Shown: one piece after another, positions 3,476 to 62,768 of the stretch | Layout: every line of letters starts with the position of its first letter | Numbering within the stretch: the first letter of the stretch is position 1 | Assembly: GCF_010726765.1 (NCBI RefSeq) | Contig: NZ_AP022601.1 | Coordinates: 2,480,001-2,544,000 of the forward strand | DNA from: Mycobacterium gallinarum | Lineage (GTDB): Bacteria > Actinomycetota > Actinomycetes > Mycobacteriales > Mycobacteriaceae | Direction: 5' to 3' | DNA: 64,000 nucleotides | Position numbers and translations under genes: made by a program | The notes under the pieces: generated by a model | What the model was told of the DNA's origin: nothing | Database searches by the model: none | Seen by the model: the letters and a program-made list of their open reading frames with translations, nothing else

Positions 3476-3776
3476 GTGGTGAAGTCCTACTTTCCTGTTC
3501 GCAATAAGATCTGATTCGATTCGCTCGAGATCCCACTGGGTGTTGATCCCGACGCTACCCGCTTGTTCCGGCACGAGGCGACCGATAAAGCCGAATCGCG
3601 TAGTTGGTATTCACTTGTGTGGGCAGAACATATCGCCTAACCACCCCGCAACCCTCTGGAACGCGCTGCCACGCCCCTGGCGTGTCGCCGCCGTTACCGG
3701 TTCGGGAGCCGTCCGCAACCAAAGTACCCGTCGCGTGGGAGTTGCCGGCAACCGCGCGTCCCCGATACCGCAACCC
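3476..3776. other. intergenic: clpX leader and downstream end of the repeat protein
   Basis: About 300 bases without a convincing gene. The part nearest clpX contains AGGAAAG and GTAGGAC, a plausible ribosome binding region about 10 bases before the clpX ATG. Small open frames on both strands have no start signals or coding character. No strong terminator hairpin or regulator box was seen. Confidence 0.5.
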
Positions 3777-34141: not shown

Positions 34142-36148
34142 CTACTGGGACTGCTCCTCGCGGCGGGCAAGCTCGGCGAGCATCCTGTTGTACGCGGCGA
34201 GGTCGGCCTCGTCGTCGCGATCCGCGGCGCGGTCCAGCCGCTTCGCGGTGCGCTCGTCGCTGCGGCGCCACTGAATCAGCAGCGCGGCCATCACGATGAC
34301 GAGCGGCAACTCGCCTGCCGCCCAGGCGATTCCACCACCCAGCCGTTGGTCGCCGAGCAGGTCGTTGTGCCAGTACAGCTGCAGCGACTTGTAGAACGGC
34401 TCTCCCAGTACCGTGTTCGTGCTCATCAACACCACCCCGAAGAACGCGTGGAATGGCAACGACGCGAACACCATGCCGACCTTGCCCAGCGGCGGGATCG
34501 GCCGCGGAGTCGGATCGACGCCGATCACCACCCAATAGAACAGGTAGCCGGTCAGGAGGAAGTGCAGATTCATCGCGAGGTGGGCGGGGTGGCTGTCCAC
34601 CGCCGCGTCGAAGATGCCGCCGAAGTACAGCCCGTAGAAACCCGCCACGAACAGGAACGTCGCGACGAACGGATTGGTGAGCACGCGCGACACCCGAGAA
34701 TGCAGGGCGGCGAGCAGCCACTCCCTGGGCCCCGGCGGATCGTCGCGGCCAGCGGCGGGTAGCGCCCGCAATGCGAGCGTGACGGGAGCCCCGAGCACGA
34801 GCAGGATCGGCGCGAGCATCGACAGCAGCATGTGCGCGGCCATGTGCATGCTGAACATGGCCGGCATATACCGGCCGACGCCTGATGACGTGGCGAACAG
34901 GAGGACCAGACAACCCAGGAGCCATGCCACGGTCCGGCCGATCGGCCATGTGTCGCCGCGGCGCCGCAGCCTGATGACGGCAACCGTGTACACGACGGCG
35001 AACACGATGGCTGCCGTGCCGAATACCAAGTCGAAGCGCCAGTCGAACAGGATGCGGGCCAGCGTTGGTGGACCTGCCAGGTCGTAGCCGATTTCGATCA
35101 CCGGGATGGAGGGATTGAAGATGGGGGGCGCAGGGGGCGGTGTCCGCCCCAGCGCGACGGCGATACCGAACGTCAGGCCGAACACCACCGCTTCCACGAG
35201 TGCCAACCTGATCAACGGAACGCGCGCCCCAGGGTCCGCCTCCAGCGCGGCGACACCGCGGCGGCGTTGCAACCAACCGAGCGCACCGAGTACGCACAGC
35301 GCCGCCGTCTTGGCCAGGATCAGCCAGCCGTACGCGGTGTCGAACAGATCTGAGGGCTGAACCCGGACGAGGGCGTTGACGACACCGCTGAACGCCATGG
35401 CGACGAAGCACCACAGTGCGACCGCCGAGAATCGACGCGCCGCCAGGTAGGCGTGCTCGCCACCGCGCAGCGCGTGCACCAGCAGCGCCAGCAACCCGCC
35501 GGCCCAGAGCGCGCCGGCCACGAGGTGGATGAGCAGGCTGTTGGTGGCCAGATCGTGGGAACCGCCGGAGGCCGAATGACCGGTCAGCGCCAGCGGCAGC
35601 AGGGTGGCCAGGGACCCCGCGAACAGCAGCGGCGTCGGCGACCAGCGCAGGACCGGGATGCTGGCGATGGTCACGGCAGCGGCGATGAAGACGGTCCACC
35701 GCCACGCCCCGGCGATCTCGACCAGGCTCGCCACCGACCAGATCGCGGACGGGTCCAGGCGCGAGGAGATGGGCTGCCCGGTGACGTCGGACACGGTCAG
35801 CGGGACCAGCAACGCGGCGCAGACGGTCCACACGCCGGAGGCGACAGTGCCGAGCCGCAGCGCACGATAGCCGCCGGCGTCGAGCACCCCGTTGGCCTGC
35901 GGAGGTACCAGGAATGCGGCGAACAGGAACGACCCGACGGCGATCACGGCGGCGATCTCCCCCGCTGCTCGGACGAACGGCAGGCCATACGTGGTCACCG
36001 GGCCCGGATCGGGCAGCCCCGTCGCCGTCAGCGCATCCGCGAGCGACAGCGCGCCCAGGCCCGCGGCGGTCGCCCCGGCCAGCACAGCGACCCCGACGAG
36101 CACCGGCCACACCGGGCCGGTGCGCACGCGGGATGCGACCGTCGTCAT
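34142..36148 (-). CDS. CopD-CtaG fusion membrane protein (copper resistance D / cytochrome c oxidase assembly)
   Basis: 668 residues with about 16 hydrophobic spans. The N-terminal half (about 1-330) matches CopD-type copper transport proteins, including LLIHLVAGALWAGGLLALLV and its conserved His. The C-terminal half is a caa3-type CtaG domain, with SMHMAAHMLLSMLAPILLVL, NLHFLLTGYLFYWVVIGVDP and LPFHAFFGVVLMSTNTVLGE providing the clustered His/Met residues. Probable role: copper delivery in cytochrome oxidase assembly. A charged cytosolic tail follows. Similar fusions occur in mycobacteria (Rv0102 type). Convergent with the preceding gene. Confidence 0.9.
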   Translation of the reverse strand: MTTVASRVRTGPVWPVLVGVAVLAGATAAGLGALSLADALTATGLPDPGPVTTYGLPFVRAAGEIAAVIAVGSFLFAAFLVPPQANGVLDAGGYRALRLGTVASGVWTVCAALLVPLTVSDVTGQPISSRLDPSAIWSVASLVEIAGAWRWTVFIAAAVTIASIPVLRWSPTPLLFAGSLATLLPLALTGHSASGGSHDLATNSLLIHLVAGALWAGGLLALLVHALRGGEHAYLAARRFSAVALWCFVAMAFSGVVNALVRVQPSDLFDTAYGWLILAKTAALCVLGALGWLQRRRGVAALEADPGARVPLIRLALVEAVVFGLTFGIAVALGRTPPPAPPIFNPSIPVIEIGYDLAGPPTLARILFDWRFDLVFGTAAIVFAVVYTVAVIRLRRRGDTWPIGRTVAWLLGCLVLLFATSSGVGRYMPAMFSMHMAAHMLLSMLAPILLVLGAPVTLALRALPAAGRDDPPGPREWLLAALHSRVSRVLTNPFVATFLFVAGFYGLYFGGIFDAAVDSHPAHLAMNLHFLLTGYLFYWVVIGVDPTPRPIPPLGKVGMVFASLPFHAFFGVVLMSTNTVLGEPFYKSLQLYWHNDLLGDQRLGGGIAWAAGELPLVIVMAALLIQWRRSDERTAKRLDRAADRDDEADLAAYNRMLAELARREEQSQ

Positions 36149-52239: not shown

Positions 52240-53358
52240 TCAGGCCTCCTTCGCGATCTCCGCCAGCACTTGTTCTCGCTGCGCCAGCAAGTCCGGGGTG
52301 ATGTCGTGGTACACGGTGTCGAACACGTCGGTGATGTCGAAATCGTCGGCGTCGACAACCGCCTCCCGCAGCTCGGCGCGCAATCGCTTCGATTTGGCGG
52401 CAACCCGCTCCTCGAGCCGCTCGCTCCACACACCTACCGACTGCAGGTACGTCCGGTAGCGCTGAATCGGGTCGCGCGCCGCCCAGTATTCGAGTTCCTC
52501 GTCGGAGCGGTAGCGGGTGGGGTCGTCAGAGGTGGTGTGCGGACCCATCCGGTAGGTGATCGCCTCGATCAGCGTCGGCCCGCCGCCTCCTCGGGCACGC
52601 TTGGCGGCCTCGGCCGTCACGGCGTAACAGGCCAGCACGTCGTTGCCGTCCACCCGAACTCCGGGCATCCCGTAGCCGATGGCCCGGTGCGCGATCGACG
52701 GCCCGGCCAGCTGCCTACTGACCGGAACCGATATCGCCCAGTGGTTGTTCTGTACGACGAACACGCATGGCGCGTTGAACACGGCCGCAAAATTCAGCGC
52801 CTCGTGCGCGTCGCCCTCGCTGGTGGCGCCGTCGCCCATGAACGTCAAGGTCACCGAATCCTCGCCAAGGCGTTGCGCCGCCATCGCCGCGCCGACCGCA
52901 TGCAGACCTTGGGTTCCGATCGGGATCGAGATCGGCGCGACACACTTCTCGGTGAACTGCAGCCCCCCGTGCCATTTGCCGCGCCAGACCGCACCCATCT
53001 GCGCCGGGGTGAGTCCGCGCAGCAGAAACGCGCCGATCTCTCGGTACTGCGGGAACAGCCAGTCGGTCTTGGGCAGGCAAGCTGCGGCACCGATCTGCGC
53101 GGCCTCCTGACCACGGCAGGATGCGTAGAGTGCCAGCTCACCCTGTCGCTGCAGGTTGACGAACTCGATGTCGAGTTCGCGGGTGACGACCATCGACTCG
53201 TAGAGCCAGGCCAGAGTCTCGGGCGGGAGGTTCCGTCGGTATTGAGAGGACCTGCTTGAGGCGGTCGGCGTCCCATCGGGCGCGACCAGCTGTATCGGAT
53301 CCAGCTCGACGCCTGGCTCTATCCCAGACGTCCGCGGGGTCGCATCGATCCCTGCCAT
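52240..53358 (-). CDS. bkdA: branched-chain alpha-keto acid dehydrogenase E1 alpha
   Basis: 372 residues from MAGIDATPRTSGIEPGVELD. The ThDP/Mg motif is GDGATSEGDAHEALNFAAVF ending V-V-Q-N-N. Substrate-side features include YRMGPHTTSDDPTRYRSDEE with the H-T-S-D-D-P-T signature of branched-chain E1 alpha rather than pyruvate dehydrogenase. Starts the bkdA-bkdB-bkdC operon (next gene overlaps). Orthologue of Rv2497c. In M. tuberculosis citE follows immediately upstream; here 3.3 kb is interposed. Confidence 0.95.
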   Translation of the reverse strand: MAGIDATPRTSGIEPGVELDPIQLVAPDGTPTASSRSSQYRRNLPPETLAWLYESMVVTRELDIEFVNLQRQGELALYASCRGQEAAQIGAAACLPKTDWLFPQYREIGAFLLRGLTPAQMGAVWRGKWHGGLQFTEKCVAPISIPIGTQGLHAVGAAMAAQRLGEDSVTLTFMGDGATSEGDAHEALNFAAVFNAPCVFVVQNNHWAISVPVSRQLAGPSIAHRAIGYGMPGVRVDGNDVLACYAVTAEAAKRARGGGGPTLIEAITYRMGPHTTSDDPTRYRSDEELEYWAARDPIQRYRTYLQSVGVWSERLEERVAAKSKRLRAELREAVVDADDFDITDVFDTVYHDITPDLLAQREQVLAEIAKEA

Positions 53359-53483
53359 ACCGCCTCCTAGGGTCACTGACGGCGGGTCGCGCCGTCAGGC
53401 GACTGAGGTGCTCAGCACGGAGGCGATCGGAGCAGAACCCCTGGTGGGGGGCTCGTCCGCTAGCTGCCGGGGTGTGGCGCTAA

Positions 53484-53591
53484 CGCGACGATGCGCTCTG
53501 CTCGCCGCAGTACTGGGGCATCAACCATTATGCCCTCGCATTGGAAGACAGCATCTGATCGCGGCCGGCGGTGAGGACGTGTCGCGCGTCA
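53484..53591 (-). pseudogene. citE 3'-end fragment (second, decayed copy)
   Basis: Minus-strand sequence reads ARHVLTAGRDQ, then after a one-base deletion VFQCEGIMVDAPVLRRAERI-(V)-A. The intact citE ends ARAVLAAARDE, GVFQHEGLMVDAPVLRRAER, IVASAT. Over VFQ to IVA, 20 of 22 residues agree, and the DNA alignment of plus-strand 53485 onwards to 56677 onwards is obvious. The fragment starts directly at the stop codon of the DUF1214 gene and fades out toward bkdA. It has no start or catalytic part, so it is a scar. Confidence 0.85.
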
Positions 53592-54902
53592 GTACTGGCG
53601 ATATCTCCGTTGAACGTGTTCCTGACGGATCCGGATCTGCTCATTGCGTTCGTCTTGAGAGACGACGCGGGTGGCGGCGGGGAGGTGTGGACGCACCTCG
53701 CCGAACGCCATCTTGCTGACATTGACCTTCGGGAGTTCGTCAGGAGGCTCAGGGTAGGTCCACCGCGCGGTGAGGAACCCTTGCGTCTGGCCAGTGGTGT
53801 CCAGCCAGTTCGGCACACCGGGATCGCGGTGGGCGATCACGAACCGGGTGATGCCGTCGGTGTCTGCTTCGGCTTGAAATCCGTTGAGACTGGTCACGTG
53901 GTTGGCATAGTCCAACGACTCACCCCACAGATTGCCGAGATGAAAGCCGGTGTAGGACGGCTCGACTGGGGCGTCGATCTCAACCAGCAGGGCCTCATCC
54001 GGGCCGAGGTCGAACATTCCGCCGGAATAGACGTTGGTGCACTGACCGCCGCCCGTCGCGAGGTTCGCCCGCGCGGGTTCGTTGAGTCCGTTGCGAGGCA
54101 TGAACGTTTGGCCATCGCCGTTCCGGTCACCGTGTGCCTCCAAGACGACGTCGTAGAACTCGTTCCAGAACTTCATCTGATTCTCGACGATCGCGCCGAC
54201 TCGACGCATCTTGATGGCCGCGGCAGACGGGTCGATCGGCGGCGGATGCGCACCCTCCCTGCCGGCCTGGACGATCTGCAGATCGGGCGATAGCTCGTTC
54301 TCCCAGTCGTGAAAAAGCATGCGCACGATCAAGAATCGGGCATCTTTCGTGTCGTCGCCGATGACCTGACGCGAGGCGATGAAGTTGCCGACGTGATCGG
54401 CGGGCCGCGCCGGGGCGACGAGGATCTCGAATTGACCATCGTCGGCCACGACCAGGCCCGTGCTGTCGAGCGATCCAGTGATGGCGCGTTCGGTCGGGCT
54501 GAGCTCCGCCAATGTGCCCGAGTCTCCGGCGTACGCGGTGTGCGCTTCGAAAATCATGTACTGCGGCGCCTTGTGGCCCACCAGCCTGCCCCGCACCCGG
54601 TAACTGGCGCCACCGTCGATCGACGCCGACAGGTACAGCGCGTCGGCATTGTCGATGGTCGCCTTGTCCACCGGCTGAATTGCGCGGCGGAAGTATGGGA
54701 ACGCGGGGTCTTCACACAAGGCGCGCTCGATCGCACCGAATGTGAAGCCGAGTAGGTAGCGGTATCCCTCGGCGAGCCCCCGCTCGGTCTCTGGGGGCGC
54801 GTGTAGATCCGGTGAGTCGATCGCGTCCCTTGCCCTGTTCAGTCCGTCGATCAAGTCGGTCCAGGCGGCGCGGAGTGCGGTCGCGCTTGACTCAGTTGAC
54901 AA
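53589..54902 (-). CDS. DUF1214-domain protein
   Basis: 437 residues from a TTG at 54902 (LSTESSATALRAAWTDLIDG), supported by AGAAGGAG eight bases upstream; it overlaps the end of the sulfotransferase gene. The central/C-terminal region with GDRNGDGQTFMPRNGLNEPA, FDLGPDEALLVEIDAPVEPS and FHLGNLWGESLDYANHVTSL is DUF1214-like, a beta-rich fold seen in many actinobacterial proteins of unknown function. RPHLPAATRVVSQDERNEQI at the end. Tight coupling implies that it works with the sulfotransferase, perhaps on the same lipid or sterol-like substrate. Confidence 0.75.
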   Translation of the reverse strand: MSTESSATALRAAWTDLIDGLNRARDAIDSPDLHAPPETERGLAEGYRYLLGFTFGAIERALCEDPAFPYFRRAIQPVDKATIDNADALYLSASIDGGASYRVRGRLVGHKAPQYMIFEAHTAYAGDSGTLAELSPTERAITGSLDSTGLVVADDGQFEILVAPARPADHVGNFIASRQVIGDDTKDARFLIVRMLFHDWENELSPDLQIVQAGREGAHPPPIDPSAAAIKMRRVGAIVENQMKFWNEFYDVVLEAHGDRNGDGQTFMPRNGLNEPARANLATGGGQCTNVYSGGMFDLGPDEALLVEIDAPVEPSYTGFHLGNLWGESLDYANHVTSLNGFQAEADTDGITRFVIAHRDPGVPNWLDTTGQTQGFLTARWTYPEPPDELPKVNVSKMAFGEVRPHLPAATRVVSQDERNEQIRIRQEHVQRRYRQY

Positions 54903-56046
54903 TTGCGTCGTCTCCTTCTGTCTCCCAGTTGAAGCGCTCGAAGAGGCCGGCCAACTGGGTGTGAATCTCGTGTGGATCAAGGCCGAATTCTTCGAGGCAG
55001 TATCGATGAGCCGACTCATGGCCTTGTCCCAATGCCGAGTCGATTGCCTCGGCGACCGCGGGCCCGAGCTCGAGACCCAACTCCTCGTAGACGCAACGCA
55101 TCGTGAGCGCAGGCCTGCTCACCAGGTCTCGATAGTCGACTACGCACGAGCGCGTTTCCGGATGTCGCGCCAGCACCTCGAGCGGATGTTCGTAGGCATC
55201 GAACGACTGGTCGGCCAGAACGCGCAGCGAGTTCTTGATCAACTGGTCGTCGCGTCCGCGCAGCGTCCACTCTTTTTGCAGCATCTTGAGGAGGCTCGGG
55301 ATCGTTTCGTAAGGGTTACGCACTGGCACAACGAATCTCGCATCCGGGAATGTCTCGATGAGGGCCTCGACGCGGCCGCAGAAGGTCGGGTTCTTACTCA
55401 GGTGAGTTCCTCCGCCATTCAGGACGATCTGGCGCCGAACACATTCCTTGTAGAAGGTCATCACACGCCTACGCTTGTCTTCGCTCCAGCGGTCGACGTG
55501 GTAGAAATCCAGCTCACCCATGTAGGGGAACATCACTATCCAGAAGCCGGAACCCAGCGACCACGTCAACAGGAAGTCGTCCTCCTCGGGTGCGAAGAAC
55601 CCCGTCTTGTGCATGTCATTGGTCTCAGCGAACGCGCTCTCTTCGATCGCATCGAGCCTGCGCCGGAGGCGCTTCCCCGTCACGTCATCGATTCGGAACA
55701 GCAGCCGCAGGAACCGCTTCTCGAGCAGCGACGGAAAGAACATCTCGTACATCAGCACGTAGCTGAACTGAGGGTCTTTGGCCATCAACCGATGCAGATA
55801 GGTGGTGCCACTGCGGGCATGTCCGACACAAAACGTCGGCTCGCGCACCTGTGTCCTGCGCAGCGACGGGAACAGGATGGGATCCAGCGCGAAGCAGACG
55901 GCGTGGATGGCGGCGATCGTCGGCACACCGATCAGGAACGCGCAGAACATTTTTCGGCGTCGCGCCGGATTTGGCTCCTCGCGCAACAGCCTGAGCATCG
56001 TGCGGTAGTTGGCCCAGTCGAAGTAGTAGCGCCACCCGGCACCCAT
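54892..56046 (-). CDS. sulfotransferase family protein
   Basis: 384 residues. PAPS 5'-phosphosulfate loop FCVGHARSGTTYLHRLMAKD (R-S-G-T-T) and a 3'-phosphate-binding region GGTHLSKNPTFCGRVEALIE followed by RFVVPVRNPYETIPSLLKML. These define the sulfotransferase fold that moves sulfate from PAPS to an acceptor. A hydrophobic N-terminal region (AFLIGVPTIAAIHAVCFALD) suggests membrane association and a lipid acceptor. It follows the MarR gene by 72 bases and overlaps the DUF1214 gene. Acceptor unknown. Confidence 0.88.
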   Translation of the reverse strand: MGAGWRYYFDWANYRTMLRLLREEPNPARRRKMFCAFLIGVPTIAAIHAVCFALDPILFPSLRRTQVREPTFCVGHARSGTTYLHRLMAKDPQFSYVLMYEMFFPSLLEKRFLRLLFRIDDVTGKRLRRRLDAIEESAFAETNDMHKTGFFAPEEDDFLLTWSLGSGFWIVMFPYMGELDFYHVDRWSEDKRRRVMTFYKECVRRQIVLNGGGTHLSKNPTFCGRVEALIETFPDARFVVPVRNPYETIPSLLKMLQKEWTLRGRDDQLIKNSLRVLADQSFDAYEHPLEVLARHPETRSCVVDYRDLVSRPALTMRCVYEELGLELGPAVAEAIDSALGQGHESAHRYCLEEFGLDPHEIHTQLAGLFERFNWETEGDDAIVN

Positions 56047-56069
56047 GCAAGAAGGCTAGCCCTAGTAAT

Positions 56070-56082
56070 TTGACAATGTCAA
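56070..56082. promoter_or_regulatory. perfect palindrome TTGAC-AAT-GTCAA upstream of the sulfotransferase gene
   Basis: A five-base inverted repeat with a three-base centre lies between the MarR stop and the sulfotransferase start. MarR proteins typically bind such A+T-rich palindromes, and TTGACA is also a -35 hexamer, so binding would block a promoter. Binding by the adjacent MarR protein is inference. Confidence 0.45.
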
Positions 56083-56118
56083 GCAACTACGAGAGCGCAC
56101 TCTTCTCGACGCCTGTCT

Positions 56119-56607
56119 TCATGGTTCGTCGTCGATCGAAGTCGCCGTGGTGTCTGCGAGGAACCGCATCAGAAGCCGATCGAAGTCCTCCAGCTCGGAG
56201 GCCGACCATCCGGACAGTGCCCGCTGCAAGTGACGCCGCCGCACGTCCTGCAGTGCTCCCGCGACCCGGTGGCCCTCAGGGCTCGCCGCAACGAGTGACA
56301 CTCGTCGGTCCGCGGGATCCGGCTGTCGACTGACCAGCCGCGCCTCGACGAGTGCGTTGACCTGCCGCGCCGCCATGCCCACGTCCATGTGAGCGATACG
56401 CGCCAGACCACCCATCGGGAGCGGTCCCTCGTCGATGAGGGTTCGGAGCAGGACGTAGGACGGCTGCGCCAGATCCACACCGGCGGCCGCCGCCTGCCGG
56501 GCGAACATGGAGCGACTGCCGCTCAGCCGCATCACCCTGGCCAGCGTGTGGTTGATGGAGTCCAGCGACCCTTGTCTGCCTGACAACGCCATTGGCAAAT
56601 CATGCAC
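56119..56607 (-). CDS. MarR-family transcriptional regulator
   Basis: 162 residues with an N-terminal helix and a winged helix-turn-helix: YVLLRTLIDEGPLPMGGLAR, IAHMDVGMAARQVNALVEAR and the wing LVSRQPDPADRRVSLVAASP with the conserved D-x-R-R. MarR dimers usually repress until bound by small phenolic or acyl ligands. An internal ATG at 56592 is possible. It lies between citE and the sulfotransferase gene, all leftward. Confidence 0.9.
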   Translation of the reverse strand: MHDLPMALSGRQGSLDSINHTLARVMRLSGSRSMFARQAAAAGVDLAQPSYVLLRTLIDEGPLPMGGLARIAHMDVGMAARQVNALVEARLVSRQPDPADRRVSLVAASPEGHRVAGALQDVRRRHLQRALSGWSASELEDFDRLLMRFLADTTATSIDDEP

Positions 56608-56663
56608 GCTATGCGGGGTGACGCTCAGAGGCGGGCATGAAGCCGGTCCCGCGAAACTCGTCC

Positions 56664-57470
56664 CTACGTGGCGGACGCGACGATCCGTTCTGCGCGCCGA
56701 AGCACCGGGGCATCGACCATCAAACCCTCGTGTTGGAACACTCCCCGCTCATCGCGGGCAGCCGCGAGAACCGCCCGTGCCCAGTCGACCTGCTCGTCTG
56801 TCGGCGCGTAGGCATCACGAATGACCGCAACCTGCGATGGGTGGATGGCAACCTTGGCGTCGAAGCCCACTGCGACCGCGTCGTCACTTTCCGCGCGGAG
56901 GCCGTCGAGGTCCTTGATGTTGAGATAAACGGAATCCAACGCGATCTTGCCGTACGCCTTGGCGGCAAGCAGACTCTGCGACCGCACATGTCTGGCGACG
57001 TCGCGGTAACTACCGTCGGGCCACCGGTTGGCGGTGCCGCCGGTGACGGCGAACAGATCCTCCGCGCCCCACATGACCGCGAACGCATTGTCCATGCGCG
57101 CCAGTTCGCCGACTTCCAAGGCGCCCAGCGGTGTCTCGATCAGCACGACCACCTCGCGCGGTGCGAGATCGCGGACCTGGCGCGGTGATTCGGTTTTAGC
57201 CAGCATGACGACGGTGTAGTCGGTGCGCGCCAGCGTCTCCAGGTCGAGCTGATGATCGGACGTCGCGGTCGGGTTGATCCGGACGACCGTGCGGGCGGGG
57301 TCCAGCGGAGTGTCGATCAGCGCTTGGCGTGCGGCTTCGCGGTCCTTGGCGGCGACACCGTCCTCGAGATCGAGGATAACGACATCGGCTGCGGCGGCGG
57401 CCTTCTCGAACCGTTCAGGGCGGTCGGCGGGACAGAACAGCCAAGCCGGACCGTTGTTGCCCAACGCCAT
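56664..57470 (-). CDS. citE: CitE-like beta-hydroxyacyl-CoA lyase
   Basis: 268 residues of TIM-barrel lyase: WLFCPADRPERFEKAAAAAD, VVILDLEDGVAAKDREAARQ (metal-site Glu/Asp), VVLIETPLGALEVGELARMD and MWGAEDLFAVTGGTANRWPD. Work on Rv2498c assigned it lyase activity on 3-hydroxy-3-methylglutaryl-, citramalyl- and beta-methylmalyl-CoA, so it ends leucine degradation and also serves itaconate breakdown. Its start overlaps the stop of the MaoC gene by one base. Its 3' end is duplicated near bkdA. Confidence 0.92.
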   Translation of the reverse strand: MALGNNGPAWLFCPADRPERFEKAAAAADVVILDLEDGVAAKDREAARQALIDTPLDPARTVVRINPTATSDHQLDLETLARTDYTVVMLAKTESPRQVRDLAPREVVVLIETPLGALEVGELARMDNAFAVMWGAEDLFAVTGGTANRWPDGSYRDVARHVRSQSLLAAKAYGKIALDSVYLNIKDLDGLRAESDDAVAVGFDAKVAIHPSQVAVIRDAYAPTDEQVDWARAVLAAARDERGVFQHEGLMVDAPVLRRAERIVASAT

Positions 57471-57970
57471 CAGGCCGTCCCCTCGGGCCGCTTGCGCACC
57501 ATGGTCTTGCGGGACGCGGTCGCCACGACGTCACCGTGTTGATTGCGGCCAACGTGCAAGAAGGTGACGATGCCTTCCCCCGGCCTGCTCTTCGATTCCC
57601 GCTTCTCGGTGATCTCGGTCTCGGCGTAGAGCGTGTCACCGTGGAAGAGCGGCTTCGGGAACGCGACTTCGCCGAAGCCGAGGTTTCCGACGATGGTGCC
57701 CTGTGTCAGTTGCGCCACCGACAGCCCGACCAGTGTCGACAGCGTGAACATCGAATTCACCAGCCGCTGGTTGAACGGGGGCAACGCATCGGAGAACGCC
57801 GCATCGAGATGCAGCGCCTGGGTGTTCATGGTCAGAGTGGTGAACAGCACGTTGTCCGCCTCGGTGATGGTGCGTCCCGGCCGGTGCTGGTACAGGACAC
57901 CGGTTTCGAATTCCTCGAACCACAGACCGCGTTGGACGATGACCTTCTTGGACTCTTCGGCGCCGCTCAC
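57470..57970 (-). CDS. MaoC-type hydratase (methylglutaconyl/itaconyl-CoA-hydratase-like)
   Basis: 166 residues from a GTG (VSGAEESKKVIVQRGLWFEE) that overlaps the fadE19 stop; the much longer open frame to 58906 runs through fadE19 and is rejected. Hotdog fold with GRTITEADNVLFTTLTMNTQ-(A)-LHLD, the hydratase-2 motif region holding Asp and His, and LFHGDTLYAETEITEKRESK. The equivalent Rv2499c product hydrates the alpha,beta-unsaturated CoA formed from leucine and in itaconate catabolism. Confidence 0.88.
   Translation of the reverse strand: MSGAEESKKVIVQRGLWFEEFETGVLYQHRPGRTITEADNVLFTTLTMNTQALHLDAAFSDALPPFNQRLVNSMFTLSTLVGLSVAQLTQGTIVGNLGFGEVAFPKPLFHGDTLYAETEITEKRESKSRPGEGIVTFLHVGRNQHGDVVATASRKTMVRKRPEGTA

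Positions 57971-61154: not shown

Positions 61155-62768
<1,614 letters not shown>

Follow-up and report, generated by a model that had tools for sequence, protein, structure and literature searches.

In Mycobacterium gallinarum, a stretch of 64,000 nt (NZ_AP022601.1, positions 2,480,001 to 2,544,000 of the forward strand; hereafter the window) carries a second 3' end of the citE gene, which lies between bkdA and a block of three genes for a MarR-family regulator, a sulfotransferase and a DUF1214 protein. The original prediction took this second end for a decayed scar, left behind when the block entered the leucine cluster. We propose instead that it is the retained promoter and leader of bkdABC, a WhiB2-type promoter that would have evolved inside the coding end of citE and been decoupled from it by a second end. 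To this reading we give a probability of roughly 0.8; it draws on homology, conservation, spacing, synonymous constraint and the distribution of end states and of cargo genes, from which promoter activity is inferred.

That a second citE 3' end exists between the DUF1214 gene and bkdA is borne out by DNA alignment. Positions 53474-53578 align with 56668-56771 at a local score of 74, far above chance, the best of 1914 random window segments reaching 34, and by our own count 20 of 22 residues are identical from VFQ to IVA. The block is thus, as had been said, extra DNA between citE and bkdA with a citE 3' end on either side. The case for decay fared less well. Gaps are present, only not the single one-base frameshift that had been described, since the alignment shows one 2-base and one 1-base gap; and the supposedly decayed tail reads in frame as LAPHPGS and a stop codon, the usual CitE tail in species with a single end. 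The DNA is, moreover, kept across species in which the reading frames are not, and the conserved element reaches further upstream, to CGACACG at 53578-53584, 4 nt beyond the DUF1214 stop.

Within the genus, citE was matched in 395 of 396 genomes, and loci were classed with profiles from 12 single-end species. Among the 80 named loci (taken from 253 as the most CitE-like, hence a non-random sample), 32 are single-end, one citE end abutting bkdA, 36 are double-end, and 12 show no bkdA, although at two of the last (L111, L141) the contig stops ~100 bases past citE. Five genomes that lack the block (G213, G125, G039, G277 and G081) carry a pair of citE ends and a short spacer, and in G169 one citE end runs straight into bkdA. 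Because near relatives without the block carry the second end too, it is not the mark of this insertion; many members of the genus have it. The two states are mixed on an 85-row tree (five double-end rows labelled by hand) that was calculated from fadE-MaoC-citE DNA minus the citE end, and on its starred branches the double-end state must have changed 11 times or more. An arrangement shared with relatives as an ancient state describes the second end, then, and not the block. That the second end might be a functionless, decaying by-product of block insertion, whether by duplication or by exchange, is what two citE ends flanking the block and the absence of the block from most near relatives would suggest; the presence of the second end in blockless relatives and at 36 of the 80 named loci, the conservation of motifs across insertions and deletions, and the fixed distances of CGACACG speak against it. 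As stated it is refuted for the second end, and we can give it very little credence.

Other rearrangements were seen along the way. The bkdABC genes are absent between citE and an echA-like gene at L113, L124, L137, L145, L148, L157, L163 and L171 (several Mycolicibacterium species), and at L211 (G072) MaoC and citE are gone between fadE and bkdA, with a citE-end remnant and the -10 motif still standing before bkdA. The G039 spacer (L033, 2825-2877) holds a palindrome with exact GCGATTTGTGTGCG arms, and M. barrassiae one exact arm (L104, 8864-8877); no GCGATTTGTGTGCG-arm palindrome was seen in the other loci compared.

The predicted -10 motif, GCATAATGG, lies in the true citE end of 31 of 32 single-end loci, as opposed to none of the 36 double-end loci and none of the 12 without bkdA. 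All 36 double-end loci have GCATA[AC]TG upstream of bkdA, 29 of them with CGACACG as well, and GCATAATGG-N-GCCCCAG is mostly kept there despite an often broken citE frame (L108 and L178 have GCATACTGG). When 20 further members of the genus were chosen by us, GCATAATG stood before bkdA in 19 of the 19 that have this gene. Among these 19 are L211 and four loci, L196, L197, L199 and L200, at which CGACACG is kept as well and no citE occurs within the 1 kb fetched; the four show CGACACG and GGCATAATG with ~25 nt from there to the bkdA start codon. ATAAT fits the ANNNT type of -10 element in M. smegmatis (PMC6448022).

Where the same bases encode CitE, they vary less than the protein alone would demand. 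Over the 11-codon core at the citE end, synonymous identity among single-end loci is 0.769, higher than in 233 of 233 windows of the gene body (body mean 0.587), while in double-end loci the same core gives 0.484, with 228 of 233 body windows equal or higher, and in the 12 loci without bkdA 0.621, with 51 of 233 equal or higher. The isoleucine codon at the -10 site is ATA in 31 of 32 single-end loci, versus 12 of the 232 other isoleucine codons of single-end citE. Single-end citE is under synonymous constraint at the -10 site, and double-end citE is without it. A palindromic operator, GGCAT-N8-ATGCC, was also tried for the element and rejected, several double-end species keeping GCATAATGG without the second arm. 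The same fate met the notion that the conserved segment is a short upstream open reading frame (ATGGTGGATGCC...), translated so as to attenuate bkdA. There is an ATG within GCATAATGG, and a 22-codon frame runs from it in the window, but between species the frame and its length vary through 1-2 nt insertions and deletions while the DNA motifs stay constant; with frames not conserved, we find this explanation scarcely credible.

Upstream of the -10 motif, CGACACG stands 40-42 or 50-54 nt before GCATA in 77 of 87 loci (L168, which has no -10, being left out), with no other exact copy in the up to 110 nt examined and a chance of ~0.02 per locus. The two spacing classes are about one helical turn apart, and in single-end loci they use different citE codons. 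The heptamer alone is not rare, the window holding 24 copies against a median of 16 over its 210 permutations, and therefore only the spacing counts. A search of the window's genome for CGACACG with CATAAT returned bkdA and one other place only, G000:C1:4505332-4505386, at similar spacing.

This spacing was compared with that at mcdR, placed by its position after the BFN-domain gene, and at clpX, the -10 boxes at all three genes being our own assignment. From CGACACG to the -10 there are 41-43 or 51-55 nt at bkdA, 41-44 nt at mcdR in 18 of 19 genus loci (L259 has AATACT instead), and 55-58 nt at clpX in 15 of 16; the shorter bkdA class equals that of mcdR. WhiB2 activates mcdR via cGACACGc upstream of the -10, and overexpressed WhiB2 activates the clpX promoter (PMC9040748); in Streptomyces, GACAC is the WhiA/WhiB motif (PMC3781837, PMC4850268). 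The clpX gene also lies in the window, with CGACACG at 3681-3687 (minus strand), 55 nt before TATGTT.

From GCCCCAG to the bkdA ATG extends a conserved leader of ~165 nt, in which AGGAGGCG is invariant in 57 aligned sequences. Of two leader alignments, A1 left aside 10 shortened-leader loci, L150 and L168, and A2 left aside near-duplicates, L101 and L169. Folding against shuffles gives z values of -4.4 for the window and -4.8 for L149. The structure model comprises a branched domain of P1 (CAGAGC:GCUCUG), P2 (loop ACACCCC) and P3 (CCYC:GRGG), an outer stem, a hairpin, and a pairing of CCUC with the Shine-Dalgarno sequence. It pairs 92.8% of cells, versus 33-49% when slid; doubly changed cells number 45 versus 22.1 in shuffles (0/500), and the pairs so changed 12 versus 8.7 (17/500), in counts uncorrected for kinship. 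The structure is thereby supported, although alternative pairings exist. In single-end loci the leader takes its 5' half from the citE end, with the CitE tail PHPG covering the P2 loop.

With the leader model R1, 88 of the 198 genus genomes gave a match, 7 being weak (32-41 bits), and in 87 the match stops no more than 45 nt from that of bkdA. Across 251 family genomes, under strict filters, 12 were matched, all in the own genus, one of 31 genera. On loci outside its training set R1 scores 166 bits at L168, 108 bits at L169 and 91-96 bits at 11 shortened-leader loci, against a background that reaches 20.3 bits at the citE end of loci without bkdA and 23.7 bits for the best opposite-strand match. 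Rfam gave no covariance-model match for window positions 53000-57600 (E<=1) or for the leaders of L103, L106, L149 and L132 (E<=5). The shortened leader, with ~40 nt less and one hairpin lost, occurs at L132, L150, L161, L162, L164, L167, L170, L172, L175, L176 and L180; those that were read keep P1-P3 and CCGCC...GGCGG.

So strong a structure, with its conserved Shine-Dalgarno pairing, would also suit an element that is RNA only, that is, a leader (possibly a riboswitch) made from the upstream BkaR-controlled promoter and lacking a promoter of its own, and the co-transcription of bkdABC with upstream genes in M. smegmatis (PMC3920632) points the same way. We nonetheless hold this to be improbable, for the folded part begins only downstream of CGACACG and GCATAATG, these two motifs are kept at L196, L197, L199 and L200 with only ~25 nt from GCATAATG to the bkdA start, and their spacing resembles that of the mcdR and clpX promoters.

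The block lies downstream of two BkaR operators, and read-through into it from the BkaR-controlled promoter is therefore plausible. In M. smegmatis, bkdABC is not only co-transcribed with the upstream genes but also derepressed in a bkaR mutant (PMC3920632), so an internal promoter would be at most one of two inputs. The 211-bp gap before bkdA in that species has no BkaR motif, and derepression there amounts to 16.5-fold for citE, 8.4 for bkdA, 3.3 for bkdB and 1.8 (not significant) for bkdC (PMC3920632), a gradient that fits an internal promoter and is no proof of one. In an M. tuberculosis strain with a citE double deletion the Rv2497c transcript was unchanged (PMC6232273), which is compatible with Rv2497c having its own promoter. 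BkaR binding at the scar itself was considered and rejected, the exact operator pattern occurring only at 62728 and 62753, with one 2-mismatch match at 34415. A literature search on the bkdA/citE promoter, the Rv2497c/Rv2498c start, sulfotransferase-DUF1214, a mycobacterial branched-chain keto riboswitch and CGACACG, its scope being search listings and the main texts opened, found the region undescribed apart from the gap in PMC3920632.

Several points weigh against a promoter and leader at the second end. The operon evidence from M. smegmatis is one, and the choice of the most CitE-like loci as named loci another. The loci behind the CGACACG spacing counts share descent and are not independent, and neither these counts nor those of leader covariation are corrected for kinship. 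The single-end locus L168 is without GCATAATG, and exact CGACACG is missing in 8 of 43 double-end loci, 1 of 39 single-end loci and 1 of 5 loci without citE. The longer bkdA spacing, 51-55 nt, falls short of most clpX spacings by 1-4 nt, and 9 of 15 clpX promoters have a second GACAC 11 nt later, 44-47 nt from the -10. With bkdA in 136 of 198 genus genomes and R1 matches in 88, many species have no recognisable leader. Finally, bkdA is not among the WhiB2 targets named in the accessible text of PMC9040748, and the main texts of the transcription-start papers gave no start at the bkdA site.

Features of the locus are collected in Table 1. The minus-strand order is accA/D-type genes, fadE, MaoC, citE, MarR, sulfotransferase, DUF1214, bkdA, bkdB and bkdC, where the names other than those of the block and citE (accA/D, fadE, MaoC, bkdA, bkdB, bkdC) are our reading of these genes. 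The placement of the MarR, sulfotransferase, DUF1214 and citE genes was correct in the original prediction, and Pfam agrees for the three block genes; the TTG start of the DUF1214 gene at 54902 is our choice.

Table 1. Features of the citE-bkdA region and its upstream operators, in window coordinates.
Feature	Position	Strand	Remarks
bkdA	52240..53358	-	ATG 53358 adopted as start
Structured leader RNA of bkdA, up to Shine-Dalgarno AGGAGGCGG and ATG	53355..53520	-	model R1, 185.8 bits
Second citE 3' end ("scar"), putative retained citE-derived segment with -10 and leader 5' half	53474..53578	-	
GCATAATGG, predicted -10 element (ANNNT type) of bkdA promoter	53525..53533	-	-10 type from PMC6448022
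CGACACG, predicted WhiB2/WhiA-type activator site of bkdA promoter	53578..53584	-	4 nt past DUF1214 stop; motif from PMC9040748
DUF1214 gene, third gene of inserted module	53589..54902	-	PF06742, 6.5e-6 (Pfam)
Sulfotransferase, second gene of module	54892..56046	-	Sulfotransfer_3, PF13469, 4e-26 (Pfam)
MarR-family regulator, first gene of module	56119..56607	-	PF01047, 1.5e-10 (Pfam)
citE, intact, diverged 3' end without GCATAATGG	56664..57470	-	
Two BkaR operators, GTTA(N)T(N4)A(N)TAAC, upstream of operon	62728-62743, 62753-62768	.	motif from PMC3920632

The block itself is sparsely distributed at this site. It lies between citE and bkdA in only one (G341, L034) of 40 citE loci retrieved together with long flanks and in only one (M. 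tusciae, L101) of the 80 named loci; in a fully supported clade of the 85-row tree, 3 of 9 species have it (those of the window, L101 and L034) and 6 do not. Block DNA is 88.5-90.5% identical between the window and L034, the surrounding genes 83-91%, and this likeness to its neighbours argues against very recent transfer between the two. Sulfotransferase matches occur in 54 of 396 genomes, and the 28 next-best loci after the window and L034 were inspected: all 28 hold a DUF1214 and a MarR match (partial and further off for MarR at L096 and L100), and none has citE within the ~1.5 kb shown. The three genes are a standing, pre-existing module. That they form a novel lipid-sulfating module governed by leucine is conjecture, the trio being together elsewhere. 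No integrase or transposase was found in the insert, which the MarR, sulfotransferase and DUF1214 genes fill (overlapping mechanical open reading frames were unscanned), and a plasmid collection searched with the block region gave no match.

Other genes have settled at the same place in other species. A distance of over 700 bp between bkdA and citE occurs in 13 of 36 double-end versus 0 of 32 single-end named loci (Fisher 8.5e-5, uncorrected for kinship), and cargo at other double-end loci, named by our reading of translations, includes TetR plus an oxidoreductase, a 448-aa lipoprotein-like gene, a secreted protein, sugar genes, a histidine-kinase-like gene and a transporter. The 448-aa gene lies between the two citE ends in M. 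peregrinum L109, and a second genome of that species (L151) is without cargo. In the window, 4 nt separate the end of the block from CGACACG. At the right junction of the block the sequence is similar to the spacer found in blockless relatives, with shuffles as high in 0/300 (L102), 1/300 (L036) and 5/300 (L032), more weakly for L104 (9/300) and L033 (38/300); the left junction is unlike that spacer.

In the model that we favour, the regulatory region would consist of CGACACG, a WhiB2/WhiA-type site, the -10 GCATAATGG and a structured leader able to pair with the bkdA Shine-Dalgarno sequence. In single-end species the same bases would double as code for the last CitE residues; in double-end species the other citE end would supply the protein's C-terminus, and the old end, freed from coding, would survive as promoter and leader. 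Upstream of CGACACG the junction would then offer room for extra genes, harmlessly for both neighbours, and in the window the pre-existing module occupies it. Most likely bkdABC would have two inputs, read-through from the BkaR promoter and its own predicted WhiB2-type promoter with a leader that may control translation. How the double end arose, and binding of WhiB2, are likewise inferred; either tandem duplication or replacement by a foreign citE end may have produced the double state. The model would account for the length of the gap that precedes bkdA in double-end species, predicts bkdA as a new WhiB2 target, which would connect branched-chain catabolism with the regulator of cell division, offers a candidate leader RNA without an Rfam match, and cautions that what looks like a gene-end scar can be a live promoter. 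It would also provide many natural replicates of how an overlap of coding and regulation is resolved, one copy becoming the protein end and the other the promoter. A broader version is tentative, and we think it rather unlikely in full: that a genus-wide unit, of a WhiB2/WhiA promoter and a new class of switching leader, sits in the citE coding end and has repeatedly been decoupled by a second end, freeing the protein end to evolve and making the junction a docking site for cargo. If true, it would tie branched-chain keto-acid breakdown to a cell-division regulator.

Known systems resemble parts of this arrangement. The operon and its BkaR operators are those of the accD1-bkdC regulon (PMC3920632), although the accessible text of that paper gives the gap before bkdA without a described promoter or leader, whereas a conserved promoter-like element and leader occupy it here. 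Like riboswitches and other leaders that control translation, the bkdA leader has a branched fold followed by a Shine-Dalgarno pairing; any ligand and switching are putative, and it matches no Rfam family. With the WhiB2 promoters of mcdR and clpX (PMC9040748) the bkdA site shares the same 7-mer upstream of an ANNNT -10, at a spacing that, on our assigned -10 boxes, agrees with mcdR in the shorter class and comes near clpX, though mostly short of it, in the longer, and with the Streptomyces WhiA/WhiB regulon (PMC3781837, PMC4850268) the GACAC motif. It differs from mcdR and clpX in preceding a metabolic operon and in lying, in single-end species, within the last part of the upstream coding sequence, with WhiB2 action predicted. 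Intragenic starts in mycobacteria (PMC6448022) likewise initiate inside coding sequence from an ANNNT -10, as is predicted for bkdA; here, in contrast to those starts, the coding and putative promoter roles have in many species been split by a second gene end.

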